Origin: an uncultured Chlorobiaceae bacterium
GTDB lineage: Bacteria; Bacteroidota; Chlorobiia; Chlorobiales; Chlorobiaceae
DNA length: 64,000 nt
Assembly (NCBI GenBank): GCA_903940125.1
Contig: CAJAJL010000124.1
Location: 1-64,000 of the forward strand
Reading direction: 5' to 3'
Shown: in pieces, positions 28,874 to 38,550 of the stretch
How the letters are laid out: every line of letters begins with the position of its first letter
How positions within the stretch are numbered: position 1 is the first letter of the stretch
The notes under the pieces: generated by a model
Database searches by the model: none
The model's input: the letters and a program-made list of their open reading frames with translations, nothing else
Told to the model about the DNA's origin: nothing
Translations under genes and position numbers: made by a program

Positions 28874-28924
28874 AAGGGCATCTCTAATGATATATCATTC
28901 AGCAATAAAACAGATGTGCCCTTA
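28874..28924. terminator. Hairpin with an internal 14-base palindrome (copy 1 of a repeat)
   Basis: Arms AAGGGCATCT (28874-28883) and AGATGTGCCCTT (28912-28923) pair with a two-base bulge; inside lies the perfect palindrome AATGATATATCATT at 28886-28899. It sits between the convergent radA and RelE-type genes and could terminate both. A second copy of the palindrome and its right flank occurs at 29878-29917, so it may equally be a miniature mobile repeat. Confidence 0.6.
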
Positions 28925-29877: not shown

Positions 29878-29917
29878 AATGATATATCATTCAGTAATAA
29901 ATAGAGGTACCCCTAAT
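29878..29917. repeat. Copy 2 of the AATGATATATCATT palindromic repeat
   Basis: AATGATATATCATT at 29878-29891 is followed by CAGTAATAAATAGAGGTACC, closely matching the right flank of copy 1 at 28886-28923 (CAGCAATAAAACAGATGTGC). The left hairpin arm is not conserved. The two copies bracket the RelE-type TA pair and the hipB/GNAT scars, about 990 bases apart. Confidence 0.8.
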
Positions 29918-29985: not shown

Positions 29986-30240
29986 TTATAATGTAGAACC
30001 AGTTTTTTCTGGCTCATCCATTATTTCATCTTTTTTATACTGTGGTGTTGTTATTTTTGAATTAGATTCTTTTTTGGTCGCTGTTGTCTTTTTATGATGA
30101 GTATGAACTTTTTTATTTGTTCCTAAATTTGAACACCCATTGAACATCATCAATAAAGTCGTTATAAAAAAACCTATAAATATTTTTTTTGTTTTCAAAT
30201 CTGTATTTTTAGTATAGAATATTTTTAAATAATCATTCAT
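29986..30240 (-). CDS. Small basic lipoprotein at the end of the kinase operon
   Basis: 84 residues. A hydrophobic stretch FIGFFITTLLMMFNGC ends in a lipobox-like cysteine at about residue 36; the mature part is lysine- and threonine-rich (VHTHHKKTTATKKESNSK) and ends acidic. There are about 20 residues before the hydrophobic region, long for a signal peptide, so an internal start is possible. Not recognised. Same strand, 94 bases after the phosphatase gene and equally AT-rich, so it belongs to the module. Confidence 0.55.
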   Translation of the reverse strand: MNDYLKIFYTKNTDLKTKKIFIGFFITTLLMMFNGCSNLGTNKKVHTHHKKTTATKKESNSKITTPQYKKDEIMDEPEKTGSTL

Positions 30241-30334: not shown

Positions 30335-31255
30335 TTATGTTTTTTTTAAATGAATTATCACTGACTGCCAATTGATATGTACTATACTGTTATAATTAAA
30401 ATAAAATCCAATTACCATACTAATAAATATAAATACTAAAACTATTATTATATAAATTTTTTTAGAGAAAAAGTGCCAAATATTTGAATTGATGGTTTCT
30501 TGATTATGACAAACTTTAACTATTTGAAGTGTAATATTATCAAAACCACCGGCATTATTAGCCAATAGAACCAGTTCATCTGCTTGTTCAGTAAGTGTTT
30601 TATTACTATAAAGTACTTTTTTCATTAAATCCTCACTAACCATACCATAAAGGCCATCAGTGCATAATATTAAACAATCTCCATTGTTAGGTTGCAGAGG
30701 AATTTTGCAGACTGTAGGAAGCTTCATATTTTCTATACCCAAAGCGTTGGTAATCTCATTTTTTCTGGGATGATTTGCAGCATTTTTTTCAGATAATGAG
30801 CCCATATCAATTAAAGACTGTACAAAAGAATGATCCTTTGTTAGACGAATAATTTCATTGCCAGAATAATAATATAAGCGACTATCGCCTACATGAGCAT
30901 AATAATATTTTGAATCCTTTTGTAAAAGAATAATACAAGTTGTCCCCATACCTTTAAATTCTGGATAATGAAGAGTATAATTAATAATTTCTTCATTTGC
31001 ATAATAAATTGAATTTATCAATAAATGGGATGGGTCATGTGATATATTATCAATTAAATATTTTTTAATCGCTTTAACTGCTATTCTTGATGCTTTTTCT
31101 CCACCTGCATGACCACCCATGCCATCACACACTACAAATACATAACCATTTTTTGTATCAAAATTAGCAAAATAATCTTCATTAACTTTTCTTTTTCTAC
31201 CTACATCAGTAGCATTACCAAATTGAAAATTATATTTCTTTATTTCAGGGTTCAT
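30335..31255 (-). CDS. PP2C-family Ser/Thr protein phosphatase with a C-terminal membrane anchor
   Basis: 306 residues. PP2C motifs are complete: RKRKVNEDYF (about 20-29), VVCDGMGGHAGGEKAS (Asp44), GMGTTCIIL, AHVGDSRLYYY, CLILCTDGLYGMV, and the closing AGGFDNITL that holds the last metal-binding Asp. A single hydrophobic helix (IYIIIVLVFIFISMVIGFYF, about 270-290) ties it to the inner membrane with the catalytic domain in the cytoplasm. It would reverse the phosphorylation made by the two kinases upstream. AT-rich like the whole operon. Confidence 0.92.
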   Translation of the reverse strand: MNPEIKKYNFQFGNATDVGRKRKVNEDYFANFDTKNGYVFVVCDGMGGHAGGEKASRIAVKAIKKYLIDNISHDPSHLLINSIYYANEEIINYTLHYPEFKGMGTTCIILLQKDSKYYYAHVGDSRLYYYSGNEIIRLTKDHSFVQSLIDMGSLSEKNAANHPRKNEITNALGIENMKLPTVCKIPLQPNNGDCLILCTDGLYGMVSEDLMKKVLYSNKTLTEQADELVLLANNAGGFDNITLQIVKVCHNQETINSNIWHFFSKKIYIIIVLVFIFISMVIGFYFNYNSIVHINWQSVIIHLKKT

Positions 31256-31304: not shown

Positions 31305-31892
31305 TTATTTACTTAGATTAAAGGGTACCATAATAAAATATAAGTTTACATTACCGACACGTATTATACATTGTTTATCGAGAACTCCTTCATTAACCAT
31401 TTGTCCATCTATAAATGTACCATTATTTGAAAATTCATCTCTGAACATAAATATATTATTTCTAAATAAAATAGTAAGATGTATTCCTGACACTCCAGGA
31501 TCATTGGGAATCATAATATCCGAATCAATATTTGATCCAATAATATTTTTACCTTCAAAAAGAATGTATGCTTTTCCTTGTTGGTTAATATCATATGTAA
31601 CAAGAAACCCAACAATTTTACGTTCTTCAACTTTTGGTTTTTCAGGACTCATTATTTTTGTTCTTTGCTGAAAAAAAGTATTATTTTCAGAACCATCGCT
31701 TGAATTAACAATTACTGTTTTTTTTGATGAATCCGAAATATTACTTTTAATAAAAGTTTTTGTTGCTTCAGATCCACTACTAAAATTCCCAATGGTTTGA
31801 TTAGCACCTTGAGATTGAGGGCAATAAGGACAATTAACATACTTATTAGGATCGTAATTATGCCCATTTGAACAAGTTTTAATGTGTGTCAT
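31305..31892 (-). CDS. Small FHA-domain protein with an N-terminal zinc-ribbon-like motif
   Basis: 195 residues. The start CSNGHNYDPNKYVNCPYC offers Cys7, His11, Cys21 and Cys24 as metal ligands. A polar linker of about 75 residues, rich in Ser and Thr, follows, and the C-terminal FHA domain spans about 105-190 (IIGSNIDSDIMIPNDPGVSG, IHLTIL, FSNNGTFIDGQ). The usual arginine of the FHA GR motif is replaced (IGSN), so phosphothreonine binding may be weakened or altered. No membrane segment: it would be the soluble adaptor of the module. The linker is a plausible kinase substrate. Confidence 0.8.
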   Translation of the reverse strand: MTHIKTCSNGHNYDPNKYVNCPYCPQSQGANQTIGNFSSGSEATKTFIKSNISDSSKKTVIVNSSDGSENNTFFQQRTKIMSPEKPKVEERKIVGFLVTYDINQQGKAYILFEGKNIIGSNIDSDIMIPNDPGVSGIHLTILFRNNIFMFRDEFSNNGTFIDGQMVNEGVLDKQCIIRVGNVNLYFIMVPFNLSK

Positions 31893-31968: not shown

Positions 31969-33552
31969 TTACAAAATTGATTTATATAGATTTACTACAT
32001 GTTTTGCAAGAATAGCAAAATTAAAAGTTGAGGCCATACCTGCATTCATAACACCAACGAGTTGCCCTTTTTCATTAAATATAGGTGATCCACTAGACCC
32101 ATGTGTTGCAGAAAGATTATGACCAAAATTAAGATCATCAGGTTCTCTAGTTAGTATTCCTTCCTGATAATGAGATTTTGTTCCCTCATGGGTATCACCA
32201 AGAATTGTGCCTTCTGGGTAACCTATCATAAACAGCTTCATTCCTGGTGTAAGTTTATTTTTATCTATAATGGCATCGTCAAGATTTATGACATTTACAA
32301 CTTCATTTGGAAGTCTTTTGTTGTTAAGTTGAATAATAGCTACATCAATATCTCTGTTAATGGTTGTTGGAATAACGTAGCAATTTAAATAATCAGACTT
32401 TTGATTATTTTTAATATATGTATTATTCATAGCAGCACCCATGAATAATATTTTTCCTGATACTTTAACATCAGCTTTATTTAAGTTTCTAATTTCTTTA
32501 ATCGTATTTAGAATCCATCTATCTGAATTATAACCAATTTTTTTAAGGACTTTTAAAGTGTCTTTTTTATTTTCTTGTTGGCTTATTAGATAAGCAATTA
32601 TATTTTCAAACTTATTCTTGATTTTATTTTTATCAGCTTTTTCATATTCCCATGGAGTAACAACATGTTGATTTGTAATAATTTTTCCATCATTGGAAAC
32701 AAAGAATCCTGTAGCGGAGGCTGCCATTGCATTATTCTTTGCCTCATCAAATAGTTCAATATTATCTCCATGAACAACAACGAGCGGATTTTTGTCTCCG
32801 GATCCCAAGTCAACAATATAAACATATTCAAAATAAAGATAAACTACAGAGTTTTCATATTTTTTCATTATATCCGGTGGATTTAATTTGCCTCTAAGGA
32901 AATAAGCTCCTGTTATTAATATAATAACAGCTATTCCAATTAATGCTTGTAATAAATATTTCTTTTTATGTATTCTTCTACTTGGTTTTGATTCATTTTT
33001 TTTGGGCTCTTGACTTGCACTTGTGTACAAGTATTGTTCCCATTCAAGTTTATGCCCATCTGCAATAAATACCTGATCACCTTTATTGATTTTTTTTGAT
33101 TCGATTTTTGTGCCATTAACTTGCGTACCATTTGATGAACGTTTATCTATAATAATAATATCTCCATTCTGCATTTGTAAAATCTCTGCATGTAAAGATG
33201 ACACATCATCAAATGGTAAAACAATATTGTTTGACAAAGAACGACCTATTGTAAATTTTCTTTTAATATCAAGCTTTGAATAATTTTCATTGTTATGATT
33301 TCCTGATGAATCTTGATCCAAAGAAGATTCCCAATTATACCGATAATTTCCTAATTTAACCTCATCATTCTTATTAATTATTTCTTCTTTGATTTTAACT
33401 CCATTTACAAAGGTACCATTTGAGGAATTTAAATCACGAATAGTAACAATACCATTATTATCGACAAGTAATAATGCATGTTCTCTCGACACTGAATTGT
33501 CGTTAATGACAACATCATTAACATTTGCACGTCCAATTTTTATTGTTTTCAT
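31969..33552 (-). CDS. Tandem FHA domains, membrane helix and trypsin-like protease
   Basis: 527 residues. FHA-1 (about 1-70) has IGRANVND, SREHALLL and SSNGTFVNG; FHA-2 (about 97-165) has IGRSLSNN, SSLHAEIL and SSNGTQVNG; both keep the phosphate-binding Arg and Ser. A basic patch RRIHKKK precedes one membrane helix (about 199-219), so the FHA pair should be cytoplasmic and the rest periplasmic. The C-terminal part is an S1-type serine protease: ITNQHVV (His296), DIDVAIIQL (Asp403) and HGSSGSP (Ser487). The stretch between His and Asp is about 100 residues, longer than in DegP-like enzymes, and there is no PDZ domain. Confidence 0.9.
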   Translation of the reverse strand: MKTIKIGRANVNDVVINDNSVSREHALLLVDNNGIVTIRDLNSSNGTFVNGVKIKEEIINKNDEVKLGNYRYNWESSLDQDSSGNHNNENYSKLDIKRKFTIGRSLSNNIVLPFDDVSSLHAEILQMQNGDIIIIDKRSSNGTQVNGTKIESKKINKGDQVFIADGHKLEWEQYLYTSASQEPKKNESKPSRRIHKKKYLLQALIGIAVIILITGAYFLRGKLNPPDIMKKYENSVVYLYFEYVYIVDLGSGDKNPLVVVHGDNIELFDEAKNNAMAASATGFFVSNDGKIITNQHVVTPWEYEKADKNKIKNKFENIIAYLISQQENKKDTLKVLKKIGYNSDRWILNTIKEIRNLNKADVKVSGKILFMGAAMNNTYIKNNQKSDYLNCYVIPTTINRDIDVAIIQLNNKRLPNEVVNVINLDDAIIDKNKLTPGMKLFMIGYPEGTILGDTHEGTKSHYQEGILTREPDDLNFGHNLSATHGSSGSPIFNEKGQLVGVMNAGMASTFNFAILAKHVVNLYKSIL

Positions 33553-33607: not shown

Positions 33608-35227
33608 TTAATATCCAATTTCATGTATATGTTGAGCCGCTTTTTTATGACCTTGCATTTGTGCCTTTAAAAACCAATAATAAGCCTTTTTATAATCCAT
33701 GCGTATACCATCACCATGTTGATATTTTAATCCAAGATTATATTGGGAACTTACGTTACCTTGAGTAGCTCCCTTTAGATACCACTTAACAGCTTCAACA
33801 ACATTTTTGTTTACTCCTGTTCCTTTATCATACATAGAACCAAGATTATTTTGGGCTTGGGCATTACCTTGTGCTGATGCTTTTTTATACCATTTGACAG
33901 CCTCTGCATAATCTACCTTCACTCCTTTTCCCTGATCATACATGGAGCCAAGATTATTTTGCGCTTTTGCATAACCTTTTTCCGCAGATTTTTTATACCA
34001 CATTACAGCCTCTTCATCATTTTTTATCACTCCAATTCCATTTTCCAATATATACCCAAGTTTATTTTGTGCTATTGCATTACCTTTATTGGCTTCGATT
34101 CTATAACGCATAAGAATATTGGCATTCTTATCATTATCAGTACTTGCTTTAATATCTGTATTATCTAAAATATTATTATCTTTGACATCTTTATAATGAT
34201 ATTTGTTATCAATATAATTATTTTGCTTTAATGGATAATTTTTTAGATCAGAATTATTTTTTGATATACCAAAAACAATATATATAATTAACGAAAATAT
34301 GAGAATGGATCCTGCGATAATTTGTGTATGTTGTTTTGAAAAATATAATTTTGGTATATCAATTTTTGAATAGTTAGATGGGTAAGAACTTGAAATAACT
34401 GTATTAATTCCATTAGTTAAATCTTTTTTGTACTCTTTACAACTTCTATATCGATTATCGGCTTTTTTGGATGTTGCCTTGTCCACTATTATTTGCATAT
34501 TGTCTGATACATAAGGATAAATATCTTTCATTCTTGGCAAGAAATCCATTACTATTTTTTTTTGTATTTCGTATTCTGATTCTTTCATAGAATCATAGGG
34601 CGCGCGTCCTGTTAACATTTGAAATAAAAGAACTCCTAAAGAATATATATCAGTCAAATGGCTTATCTCTTCTGCTTTTACTTGCTCTGGGCTCATATAG
34701 ATTAATGTGCCTATTTTAATTCCAGTTTTTGTATGGAGATTTGTATATCCAGAATCAAGGATTTTTGCAATACCAAAATCAAGGATTTTTATATTTTGAT
34801 TATTTTCAATAATTATATTTGAAGGCTTAATATCACGATGAATAATTCCTTTTGAATGAGCATAAGTAAATGCATCAAGAATAGTAATTAAAAGTTTTAC
34901 TGCTTCATTTTCAGGAATACTGCCTTTATGATTATTGATATACAAATCAAGATTTACCCCATCAACATACTCTTGTACTAAAAATAATCGATTATTTAGT
35001 TCCTCATATCTTATTAAACGTACAATATTAGGATGATTTAATATTGCCATTACCTGAGCTTCGCGACGAAAACGTTCACGAATATCTTCAAACTGTGCTA
35101 AATGTGGTAAAAGCTCCTTAATAGCAACTTTCTGATATGTAACATTATCAATACCAAGATATACTCGGCTCATCCCTCCCTCTCCGAGGATTTTTTCTAT
35201 TTTATAGTTTAAAATTATTTCATCCAT
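33608..35227 (-). CDS. Membrane Ser/Thr protein kinase with C-terminal Sel1 repeats
   Basis: 539 residues. An N-terminal Hanks-type kinase (about 8-270) has the G-loop GEGGMSRVY, Lys37, IIHRDIKPSN (130-139), ILDFGIAKI and the MSPEQV variant of APE. One membrane helix follows (IIAGSILIFSLIIYIVFG, about 308-325), then a polar spacer and four to five Sel1-like repeats (about 375-530, for example AQNNLGSMYDQGKGVKVDYA and AVKWYKKASAQGNAQ). Topology puts the kinase in the cytoplasm and the Sel1 repeats in the periplasm, a good arrangement for sensing a periplasmic protein or glycan. Confidence 0.92.
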   Translation of the reverse strand: MDEIILNYKIEKILGEGGMSRVYLGIDNVTYQKVAIKELLPHLAQFEDIRERFRREAQVMAILNHPNIVRLIRYEELNNRLFLVQEYVDGVNLDLYINNHKGSIPENEAVKLLITILDAFTYAHSKGIIHRDIKPSNIIIENNQNIKILDFGIAKILDSGYTNLHTKTGIKIGTLIYMSPEQVKAEEISHLTDIYSLGVLLFQMLTGRAPYDSMKESEYEIQKKIVMDFLPRMKDIYPYVSDNMQIIVDKATSKKADNRYRSCKEYKKDLTNGINTVISSSYPSNYSKIDIPKLYFSKQHTQIIAGSILIFSLIIYIVFGISKNNSDLKNYPLKQNNYIDNKYHYKDVKDNNILDNTDIKASTDNDKNANILMRYRIEANKGNAIAQNKLGYILENGIGVIKNDEEAVMWYKKSAEKGYAKAQNNLGSMYDQGKGVKVDYAEAVKWYKKASAQGNAQAQNNLGSMYDKGTGVNKNVVEAVKWYLKGATQGNVSSQYNLGLKYQHGDGIRMDYKKAYYWFLKAQMQGHKKAAQHIHEIGY

Positions 35228-35275: not shown

Positions 35276-36499
35276 TTATATCTTTATAAACACTATCAAA
35301 ACAAGAATCATGATGACAATAAATGATAGCAAGATTATTTCAAGTAATTTAATATTTAAATATTCTTTTTTTCCATTATCTTTAATGTTTAATGTTTTTT
35401 TTACTTGGTCCCATGGCAGTAAAACCGATTCACCAAGAATAATTTCATCACCAAACGCCACAATAACTTCTTCGTTTTTTATTATTTTACCATTGACTAT
35501 GCTGCCATTTTTACTTTTATCTTTGAAAATATATTGCGATTCAAACACTTTCAATTCTGCATGAACGCGACTAACTTTACTTTCATTATTGTTTATTGTA
35601 ATATCACATCCAACATCTCTCCCTACAGTCAGAAATAATTGTGTTGGACGAGTTGTATATGAATAATTATTATCAATATTTCCTTTCAGTGCCAGTATAA
35701 ATTCATCGCAATTATTGTAACGTAACTCTTTTTTTTTATTGGTAGCTCGATCAATAACCTTTTGAATTTCATCAGACGCAAATTCATAACTATTTTTTAT
35801 TCTTGGGAGTGGCTCTTGAATAATTTTTTGATAAATTTCATATTCTGATTGATATAATGAGTTATATGGCGGTTTGCCTGAAACTAACTGATATAAAAGG
35901 ACGCCAAGTGAATAAATATCACTTCTAATATCAATAGCATCACCTATAACTTGTTCTGGACTCATATATAAACCTGTTCCAATTTTAGTACCGTATACCG
36001 TATGCAATAGACTATTTCCAGAAAGGATTTTTGCTACTCCAAAATCAAGAATTTTTATATTTTGATCAGTCGTAATAAGAATATTCTGTGGTTTAATATC
36101 TCTATGTACTATACCTAATTTGTGGGCATAAGAAAAAGCACTGAGAATTTGAAGCATGTATTTCTTAGCTTTTTCTTCTGGAATCGGACCTGTCATCCTT
36201 GCAATGTAAACATCAAATGTTTTACCATCAACATACTCTAAAACAAGATATAATGATTTGTCATGTTCGAATGATTCTTTAAACCCTACAATATTATTAT
36301 GTTTTAATGACGACATTGTTCGCGCTTCCTGCTGAAATCGCAACTGCAATTCATCATCACCAGATATTGTTTTTTTTAATTCTTTTATTGCAACTTCAAC
36401 ACCACTCCTTTGATCAATAGCTGAATAAACTATACCCATTCCCCCTTCTCCCAAAACACGTTGTATCTTATAATGGGATACTATTGAACCAATTTGCAT
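35276..36499 (-). CDS. Ser/Thr protein kinase with FHA domain and C-terminal membrane anchor
   Basis: 407 residues. The kinase domain (about 8-275) has GEGGMGIVY, Lys39, VHRDIKPQN (132-140), ILDFGVAKI and MSPEQV. An FHA domain follows at about 290-365 (TVGRDVGCDITINN, SRVHAEL, SKNGSIVNG) with the key Arg and Ser present. A very hydrophobic C-terminus (LLEIILLSFIVIMILVLIVF) forms a tail anchor. First gene of the operon; the FHA domain could bind its own or the partner kinase's phosphorylated activation loop. A TATAAT at 36523-36528 on the minus strand is a possible -10 element. Confidence 0.92.
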   Translation of the reverse strand: MQIGSIVSHYKIQRVLGEGGMGIVYSAIDQRSGVEVAIKELKKTISGDDELQLRFQQEARTMSSLKHNNIVGFKESFEHDKSLYLVLEYVDGKTFDVYIARMTGPIPEEKAKKYMLQILSAFSYAHKLGIVHRDIKPQNILITTDQNIKILDFGVAKILSGNSLLHTVYGTKIGTGLYMSPEQVIGDAIDIRSDIYSLGVLLYQLVSGKPPYNSLYQSEYEIYQKIIQEPLPRIKNSYEFASDEIQKVIDRATNKKKELRYNNCDEFILALKGNIDNNYSYTTRPTQLFLTVGRDVGCDITINNNESKVSRVHAELKVFESQYIFKDKSKNGSIVNGKIIKNEEVIVAFGDEIILGESVLLPWDQVKKTLNIKDNGKKEYLNIKLLEIILLSFIVIMILVLIVFIKI

Positions 36500-37636: not shown

Positions 37637-38056
37637 TTATTCCGTATCGCTCAGTCGTGCCACGGCTTTGGCATACTCTTCAAAATCCTTAAGGTGTGCC
37701 GTGGCAATAGAAAAAACGATTGCCCAATTGATAGCCTCATAGTTATGGACGGCGAGGTTACGAAATCCAACCGCCTTTTTCATCCGATAAGCCAAATCTG
37801 CGCTGATTATTCCGGCTTCACATAAAATATCGAACGTTTTTCCCATCGTACAAGGTGGAGGAAACTCACTACCTGCAACAAGGTGTGTTCCAATGTCCAC
37901 ACACAGTTGAACAGCACGAGTGAGGTTGTGGGAAAGAATATCCTGAGCATCATAATCGCTGACAAGTGCATCAGCGTTTCTGGGGCATTTTTCTTTAACC
38001 CTCAGGATGGAGCGATGCAAAGACTCAAGTTTCTGATCAATTAAAGACCAATCCAC
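37637..38056 (-). CDS. hepT: HepT-like HEPN ribonuclease toxin (DUF86)
   Basis: 139 residues from a GTG at 38056. The HEPN catalytic motif R-x4-H-x-Y is present as RNLAVHNY (Arg99, His104, Tyr106); Tyr106 corresponds to the residue that MntA-type partners AMPylate. All-helical character and length fit HepT. It overlaps the antitoxin gene by 16 bases. The pair is complete and probably functional. Confidence 0.88.
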   Translation of the reverse strand: MDWSLIDQKLESLHRSILRVKEKCPRNADALVSDYDAQDILSHNLTRAVQLCVDIGTHLVAGSEFPPPCTMGKTFDILCEAGIISADLAYRMKKAVGFRNLAVHNYEAINWAIVFSIATAHLKDFEEYAKAVARLSDTE

Positions 38057-38439
38057 GCCTTCCTCCTTTCCTTCAGAATTCTTCTCTGATAAGGCACAAA
38101 ATCCTCAATGTTATAAAGATGTTTGAGCACCAGCTCAGCAAAAAGCGTATTGCTGCCAACTATTCGCCTTCCTCCGGCGATGATCTGGCCCAGCAGGGGT
38201 TCTCCAACAGTTGACAGATCAATCAAATCAACAGGGCGTCCTGTTACCTCTGCCAGGTCTGAAATCAGGTTGATTGTTTCATGAACGTCAAGCGGATGAT
38301 CGGCACCGACCGCCAGATCAACATCACTTTCATAATGAGCAGTGCCTTTGGCCAGTGAACCAAACAACAGCGCAAGACGAATGGCATTGTGCCGTTCAAG
38401 TACTTCCCTGATCTGCTTGTCGATACTCTCTGTTACCAT
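38041..38439 (-). CDS. mntA: MntA-like minimal nucleotidyltransferase antitoxin
   Basis: 132 residues from the ATG at 38439; an in-frame TTG at 38472 has a GGGGAGG nearby but would add an unusual leader. The nucleotidyltransferase motif is GSLAKGTAHYESDVDLAV, with the G-S-x10-D-x-D pattern intact, followed by VDLIDLS with the third acidic position. In characterised pairs MntA neutralises HepT by adding AMP groups to the HEPN tyrosine. Antitoxin first, then toxin. Confidence 0.88.
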   Translation of the reverse strand: MVTESIDKQIREVLERHNAIRLALLFGSLAKGTAHYESDVDLAVGADHPLDVHETINLISDLAEVTGRPVDLIDLSTVGEPLLGQIIAGGRRIVGSNTLFAELVLKHLYNIEDFVPYQRRILKERRKAWIGL

Positions 38440-38550
38440 GATGCAATATATTGATTTTGCCTCCCCTGCCAAGAGATGATGGGACTTCAGCCATTCTTCC
38501 CCCGGCTTATTCCAGAGTATTCAGATGTATATTCTCCCTCATTACCCGCT

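Follow-up and report, generated by a model that had tools for sequence, protein, structure and literature searches.

On balance, and with some caution, it was proposed that an operon of an uncultured Chlorobiaceae bacterium encodes a phospho-signalling circuit across the inner membrane, in which a protease carrying two FHA domains is the output enzyme. Two membrane-anchored kinases would place phosphates on threonines, the probable targets being the kinases' own cytoplasmic portions and an adaptor linker rich in Thr motifs, and a PP2C phosphatase would remove them again. The FHA pair of the protease would read the phospho-threonines in the cytoplasm, the binding would cluster or position the FHA-protease, and a single helix would pass the bound state to an HtrA-like protease outside. 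The latter may cut envelope proteins, perhaps including kinase segments exposed outside. Control of the protease from inside was proposed with moderate confidence.

The window was the whole analysed stretch of 64,000 nucleotides (contig CAJAJL010000124.1). The FHA-protease was encoded on its minus strand by the open reading frame 33552-31969, a strand that the sequence-only reading had left unmentioned. A Pfam search of the 527-aa protein gave the domain order FHA-FHA, one membrane helix and a trypsin-like protease. The features of the gene were as follows:

31969..33552, minus strand: FHA-FHA-TM-trypsin protein of 527 aa (ORF from ATG to stop)
33349..33543, minus strand: FHA domain 1, residues 4-68 (74.9 bits)
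33070..33252, minus strand: FHA domain 2 (59.8 bits)
32896..32964, minus strand: single membrane helix, residues 197-219, with RRIHKKK just before it (AlphaFold helix; Kyte-Doolittle mean 2.31)
31972..32880, minus strand: predicted exported trypsin-like protease domain with an HtrA-like fold, residues 225-527 (Pfam, AlphaFold, Foldseek)
32665..32667, minus strand: predicted catalytic His296 codon (TNQHV; sequence, alignments)
32497..32640, minus strand: helical insert after the predicted catalytic His, residues 305-352, of varying length in the family (AlphaFold, alignment)
32344..32346, minus strand: predicted catalytic Asp403 codon (DVAIIQ; sequence, alignments)
32092..32094, minus strand: predicted catalytic Ser487 codon (GSSGSP; sequence, alignments)

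The FHA profile PF00498 matched two stretches of the protein (E=2.5e-35). The protease part was recognised by PF13365 Trypsin_2 at residues 280-501 (E=4.5e-15; 57.1 bits against a curated cut-off of 27.6) and by PF00089 Trypsin (E=5.2e-11). The order of two FHA domains, a basic stretch, a membrane helix and a protease with His296, Asp403 and Ser487, which had been read from the letters, was confirmed, as the residues stood at these numbers and both Pfam and the helix agreed. Every row of alignment A4 (22 in total) kept the His-Asp-Ser triad, as did all 17 FHA-bearing proteins that were aligned, so it is under constraint and is no chance reading. A lone cysteine, Cys391 (window 32380-32382), was likewise unchanged in the 22 FHA and stand-alone proteases of A4; no partner cysteine was conserved with it.

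The phospho-threonine-binding core was complete in both FHA domain 1 (G7-R8, S22, H25, N45-G46) and FHA domain 2 (G103-R104, S118, H121, N141-G142), which strongly suggests that the window pair binds phospho-threonine. Such binding may not be universal in the family, because the FHA Arg was lost from one or both domains (GS, GT) in some Bacteroidota forms. This loss, together with a match over its cut-off to PF16697, the YscD cytoplasmic domain, would suit an FHA pair that serves as a structural anchor or scaffold as in YscD/PrgH-like proteins, with a constitutive protease free of phosphorylation control. We considered this very unlikely, given the intact cores of the window domains and the fact that FHA forms were without exception accompanied by kinases, as described below. 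The protein also differed from the T3SS YscD/PrgH group in that its periplasmic part was a protease and its operon held no T3SS gene.

The structure was predicted by AlphaFold from 22 aligned sequences with a mean pLDDT of 85.5. Both FHA domains were mostly above 90 and the protease part was confident, the helical insert 305-352 being less so (pLDDT ~50-70 in part). The pTM of the model was 0.57, and the position of the FHA domains relative to the protease was not fixed by it. The top PDB matches found by Foldseek were the protease domains of HtrA1, Deg1, DegP and DegS, with TM-scores of ~0.6-0.75 to the isolated protease domains of HtrA1, DegS and DegP when normalised by target. Thus, the ordered S1 fold, on which the sequence-only reading had staked its case, was predicted with confidence; sequence and predicted fold together placed an intact triad in it, and Foldseek on the predicted structure identified the fold as HtrA-like (S1C family). 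DegS/HtrA was the closest fold, and an N-in single helix with a periplasmic HtrA-like S1 protease is common to both. However, the window protein had no Pfam match to the C-terminal PDZ domain of HtrA/DegP/DegS (S1C), ended with the protease domain and carried an added cytoplasmic FHA pair. It did not belong to the MarP family either, since NCBIfam MarP scored 18.8 bits against a cut-off of 250.

The stretch between the catalytic His and Asp comprised 107 residues in the window protein. The corresponding stretch of DegP has ~30 residues. Hence, the unusual length that had been pointed out earlier was real in comparison with DegP, but it was not special to this protein, as the stretch varied from 75 to 145 residues across the whole family. 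It spanned 75-120 residues in FHA forms and 117-145 residues in FHA-less stand-alone forms. The regulatory insert that had been suggested for this region was therefore rejected as a kinase-linked feature: FHA-less relatives had the longest stretches, and the shortest ones belonged to FHA forms. The entire protease family carries this partly helical insertion, which varies in length independently of kinase linkage.

A cytoplasmic FHA pair and an exported protease had also been proposed, and the relatives of the protease spoke for this arrangement. Among the 13 FHA-less stand-alone relatives in A4, a lipobox-type signal peptide was found in nine and an N-in anchor in four, as judged by eye. In addition, the C-terminal domain of one stand-alone lipoprotein protease was also present in the C-terminal region of a kinase that a related operon encodes (45% over 58 aa, E=3e-17). 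The protease was placed outside because of these starts and this common domain, and the FHA reader was placed in the cytoplasm because the partner kinases and PP2C require it there. Very probably, the FHA pair lies inside and the protease outside the inner membrane. The positive-inside signal was clear in the window protein, with 7 K/R before the helix and 4 after it, but weak or absent across the family. The positive-inside rule was rejected as topology proof, being too weak family-wide, and the lipoprotein relatives were used instead.

The FHA-protease gene was the third of five co-directional genes in the order FHA-kinase, Sel1-kinase, FHA-protease, zinc-ribbon-like FHA adaptor and PP2C phosphatase. 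The intergenic gaps were ~48-76 bp, and from this spacing we infer co-transcription. Operon promoters and terminators did not rise above the shuffled expectation. The neighbours were the following:

35276..36499, minus strand: Ser/Thr kinase with an FHA domain and a C-terminal membrane helix (AIK, HRDIKPQN and DFG intact)
33608..35227, minus strand: Ser/Thr kinase with a membrane helix and Sel1 repeats, the repeats probably outside (AIK, HRDIKPSN and DFG intact)
31305..31892, minus strand: adaptor with an N-terminal CxNGHxYD...CPxCP zinc-ribbon-like knuckle, a Thr-motif-rich linker and a C-terminal FHA domain (Pfam, homologs)
31623..31814, minus strand: linker of the adaptor, in which T-x-[VIL] motifs recur as candidate phospho-threonine sites (motif count)
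30335..31255, minus strand: PP2C-type phosphatase with a C-terminal membrane helix (metal-binding motifs intact)
29986..30240, minus strand: candidate sixth gene, immediately downstream of PP2C and inside the low-GC island, a lipoprotein-like ORF of 84 aa with an FNGC lipobox (weak evidence)

The PP2C protein passed NCBIfam NF033484 Stp1/IreP PP2C (250.8 bits against 230). The 84-aa ORF had no NCBIfam match; it is a possible sixth operon member that might act as an exported partner or a substrate of the protease.

A profile search of the whole genome, 98.6% complete, gave two Pkinase matches, one PP2C_2 match and four FHA matches, all of them in this operon. By these profiles the operon is a closed circuit, and beyond the FHA-kinase and the adaptor the FHA-protease is the sole reader for both kinases.

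Relatives were sought in a genome collection, where a single-sequence query gave no matches and an alignment-based query recovered them. Besides the window, at least 16 loci shared the FHA-protease architecture. Full-length FHA forms were present in five genomes of the window's own genus (uncultured Chlorobiaceae), in Phocaeicola and other Bacteroidales and in one Clostridia MAG. One FHA form was on a record of Phocaeicola massiliensis labelled as a plasmid, and another was on a spirochaete contig, where the protein was cut near the contig end. Within one Bacteroidales family, the gut Bacteroidaceae, 9 of 201 sampled genomes carried full-length FHA forms. The Clostridia case was isolated, since among 200 genomes of its order only the query genome was positive, and it could reflect transfer or a binning error.

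In the DISCRIMINATING test, the neighbour genes of FHA forms were compared with those of FHA-less stand-alone relatives of one protease family (17 and 19 loci, respectively), the neighbours being annotated by profiles built in this analysis. A kinase neighbour was found in 17 of 17 FHA-form loci, whereas none of the 19 stand-alone loci had a kinase, PP2C or FHA neighbour. PP2C and a further FHA protein occurred in 16 of the 17 FHA-form loci, the exception stopping at a contig edge, and a membrane helix separated FHA from protease in all 17. These loci are not independent, as they have a common ancestry and include a few near-duplicates (L089/L110); the FHA pair nevertheless travels with kinases, and the contrast is clean. 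The phospho-threonine input assumed in the sequence-only reading was thus supported, because all recognisable kinase, PP2C and FHA domains of the genome lay in the operon and the FHA pair was found solely in kinase-adjacent members of the family.

Operons related to that of the window were seen in more than one phylum: in Bacteroidota, in the Clostridia genome and, truncated by the contig end, in the spirochaete. Two types of related operons were observed. The order was well kept in the first one (FHA-protease, adaptor, PP2C, FHA-kinase, FHA protein, giant kinase), and in the second one, from Bacteroidaceae, the kinases, PP2C and FHA protein were upstream of the protease. The giant Ser/Thr kinases had ~1270-1290 aa (L072:13662-17477, L073:4124-7993, L074:5421-9242 and L075:13430-17305), each with one helix and a YD/RHS-like repeat region of ~900-1000 residues that probably lies outside. 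In genomes of Phocaeicola, Clostridia and a further member of the Bacteroidales, the giant kinase was followed by related small secreted proteins of 26-50% identity (L072:17486-17959, L074:9244-9954, L108:672-1136); two of them were tested and had no Pfam match, and they are candidates for an exported partner. In one Chlorobiaceae genome (L032:1-17874) the cluster around the FHA-protease was expanded, as kinase ORFs or fragments numbered seven or more and were accompanied by two PP2C and by several membrane proteins with FHA domains.

The same data would also fit if the protease were recruited to its kinases or if the signal ran in the reverse direction. In that scheme, the FHA pair would do no more than hold the protease at autophosphorylated kinases, and the state of the protease would set kinase activity, either by trimming of the kinase outer domains (Sel1, DUF1566-like, YD-repeat-like) or by sensing of the envelope. 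Docking is an established role of FHA domains, exported parts reach up to ~1000 residues in kinases from related operons, and one of these kinases has an outer domain in common with a protease relative, as noted above. Proteases of the DegS type are also known to signal inward, DegS itself sensing periplasmic peptides. However, the window FHA-kinase has a tail anchor only and no outer domain, neither a cleavage site nor processing of a kinase is known, and the fusion of reader and protease suggests that the protease is the receiver of the signal. We gave this outside-in or feedback scheme a modest probability, well short of even, and retained the proposal of an inside-out circuit.

The inside-out direction had been contrasted with DegP-type sensors, which normally work from the periplasm inward, but it has a precedent in LapD-LapG, where periplasmic proteolysis is controlled from inside by c-di-GMP (PMC3032553, PMC3032545). 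In both cases a cytoplasmic signal acts through an inner-membrane protein, but LapD-LapG responds to c-di-GMP rather than phospho-threonine, keeps receptor and protease separate and has no kinase operon (PMC3032553, PMC3032545). An FHA-phospho-threonine interaction is also known to drive an inner-membrane machine in T6SS, where the kinase PpkA and an FHA reader act together (PMC3953482); the window operon differs in that it contains no T6SS genes and its output is a protease.

The FHA-FHA-Tryp architecture was listed once, for NP_811686.1 of Bacteroides thetaiotaomicron, with no functional data in the part of the 2008 survey available (PMC2605481). Compared by listed architecture, that protein has the same order of two FHA domains followed by trypsin, and the listing, as far as it was accessible, does not mention a membrane helix, a kinase/phosphatase operon, topology or a genome-wide circuit (PMC2605481). 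In the literature searched, with most subscription journals outside its scope, no description of the operon beyond this listing was found.

Tentatively, and at somewhat below even confidence, we propose a widespread system in which cytoplasmic Ser/Thr kinase signalling switches an outside protease via FHA domains and one helix within a single polypeptide. If so, one polypeptide would link cytoplasmic Ser/Thr phosphorylation directly to envelope proteolysis. Many bacterial Ser/Thr kinases have no known output; in this case, the reader forms one protein with the output enzyme. The five-gene circuit, which takes in every kinase, PP2C and FHA reader recognised in the genome, would be small enough for transfer as a whole to a laboratory strain. 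Since related modules are found in gut Bacteroidaceae, the question extends past green sulfur bacteria.

The adaptor resembled FHA regulators of the GarA/OdhI type in its N-terminal Thr motifs, C-terminal FHA domain and HMM similarity, but it had several motifs and a zinc-ribbon-like knuckle, and it scored below the NCBIfam cut-offs. By analogy, the resemblance of the motifs offers a lead. The three Cys and the His of the knuckle were unchanged in 8 homologs. T-x-[VIL] occurred 39 times in the linkers of 10 related adaptors, against 14.0+/-3.2 in shuffles, and S-x-[VIL] was not enriched. Single-sequence tests were modest (p=0.02 for the window adaptor; 2 of 6 non-significant), and the motifs are moderately supported as phosphorylation sites. 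An AlphaFold model of the adaptor was uninformative (pLDDT 40). A second adaptor type was seen in Bacteroidaceae, FHA proteins of 229-234 aa with T-x-[VI]-P-G-M-like motifs flanking the FHA domain on both ends (L105-L107, L089, L110, L111).

The operon stretch had a GC content of 29%, against ~49-50% in the flanks and ~49% in the Chlorobiaceae genome, and was therefore probably acquired laterally. When the flanking genes radA and LolC-like were used to look for an empty site, they were found on different contigs in the relatives. A HepT-like and nucleotidyltransferase (MntA-like) toxin-antitoxin pair adjoined the island (window 37637-38472, minus strand). A phage origin was rejected, as there was no match in phage records and none in viral contigs, the latter covered by a pattern scan only.

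The operon could alternatively be a phosphorylation-based defence or toxin-antitoxin module like KKP (kinase-kinase-phosphatase), with the protease as the toxic output. Both have two kinases, one with FHA, and PP2C in one operon (PMC11341870), the island adjoins the HepT pair, and one relative is on the plasmid-labelled Phocaeicola record. Nevertheless, this appeared quite improbable. The cold-shock domain PF00313, the mark of KKP PfkA (PMC11341870), was absent from both window kinases by Pfam, and the lack of phage and viral matches also weighed against it. Instead of the adjacent PP2C-kinase-kinase triplet of KKP, the order was kinase-kinase-FHA protease-adaptor-PP2C, with an extra FHA-protease and adaptor and with membrane-anchored parts. 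PADLOC matched generic kinase or protease domains only, and a defence-system assignment by this program was rejected.

On the radA side of the island, a 24-nt direct repeat, 96% identical, was located at window 28886-28909 and 29878-29901; it could be the mark of a past insertion or arise by chance.
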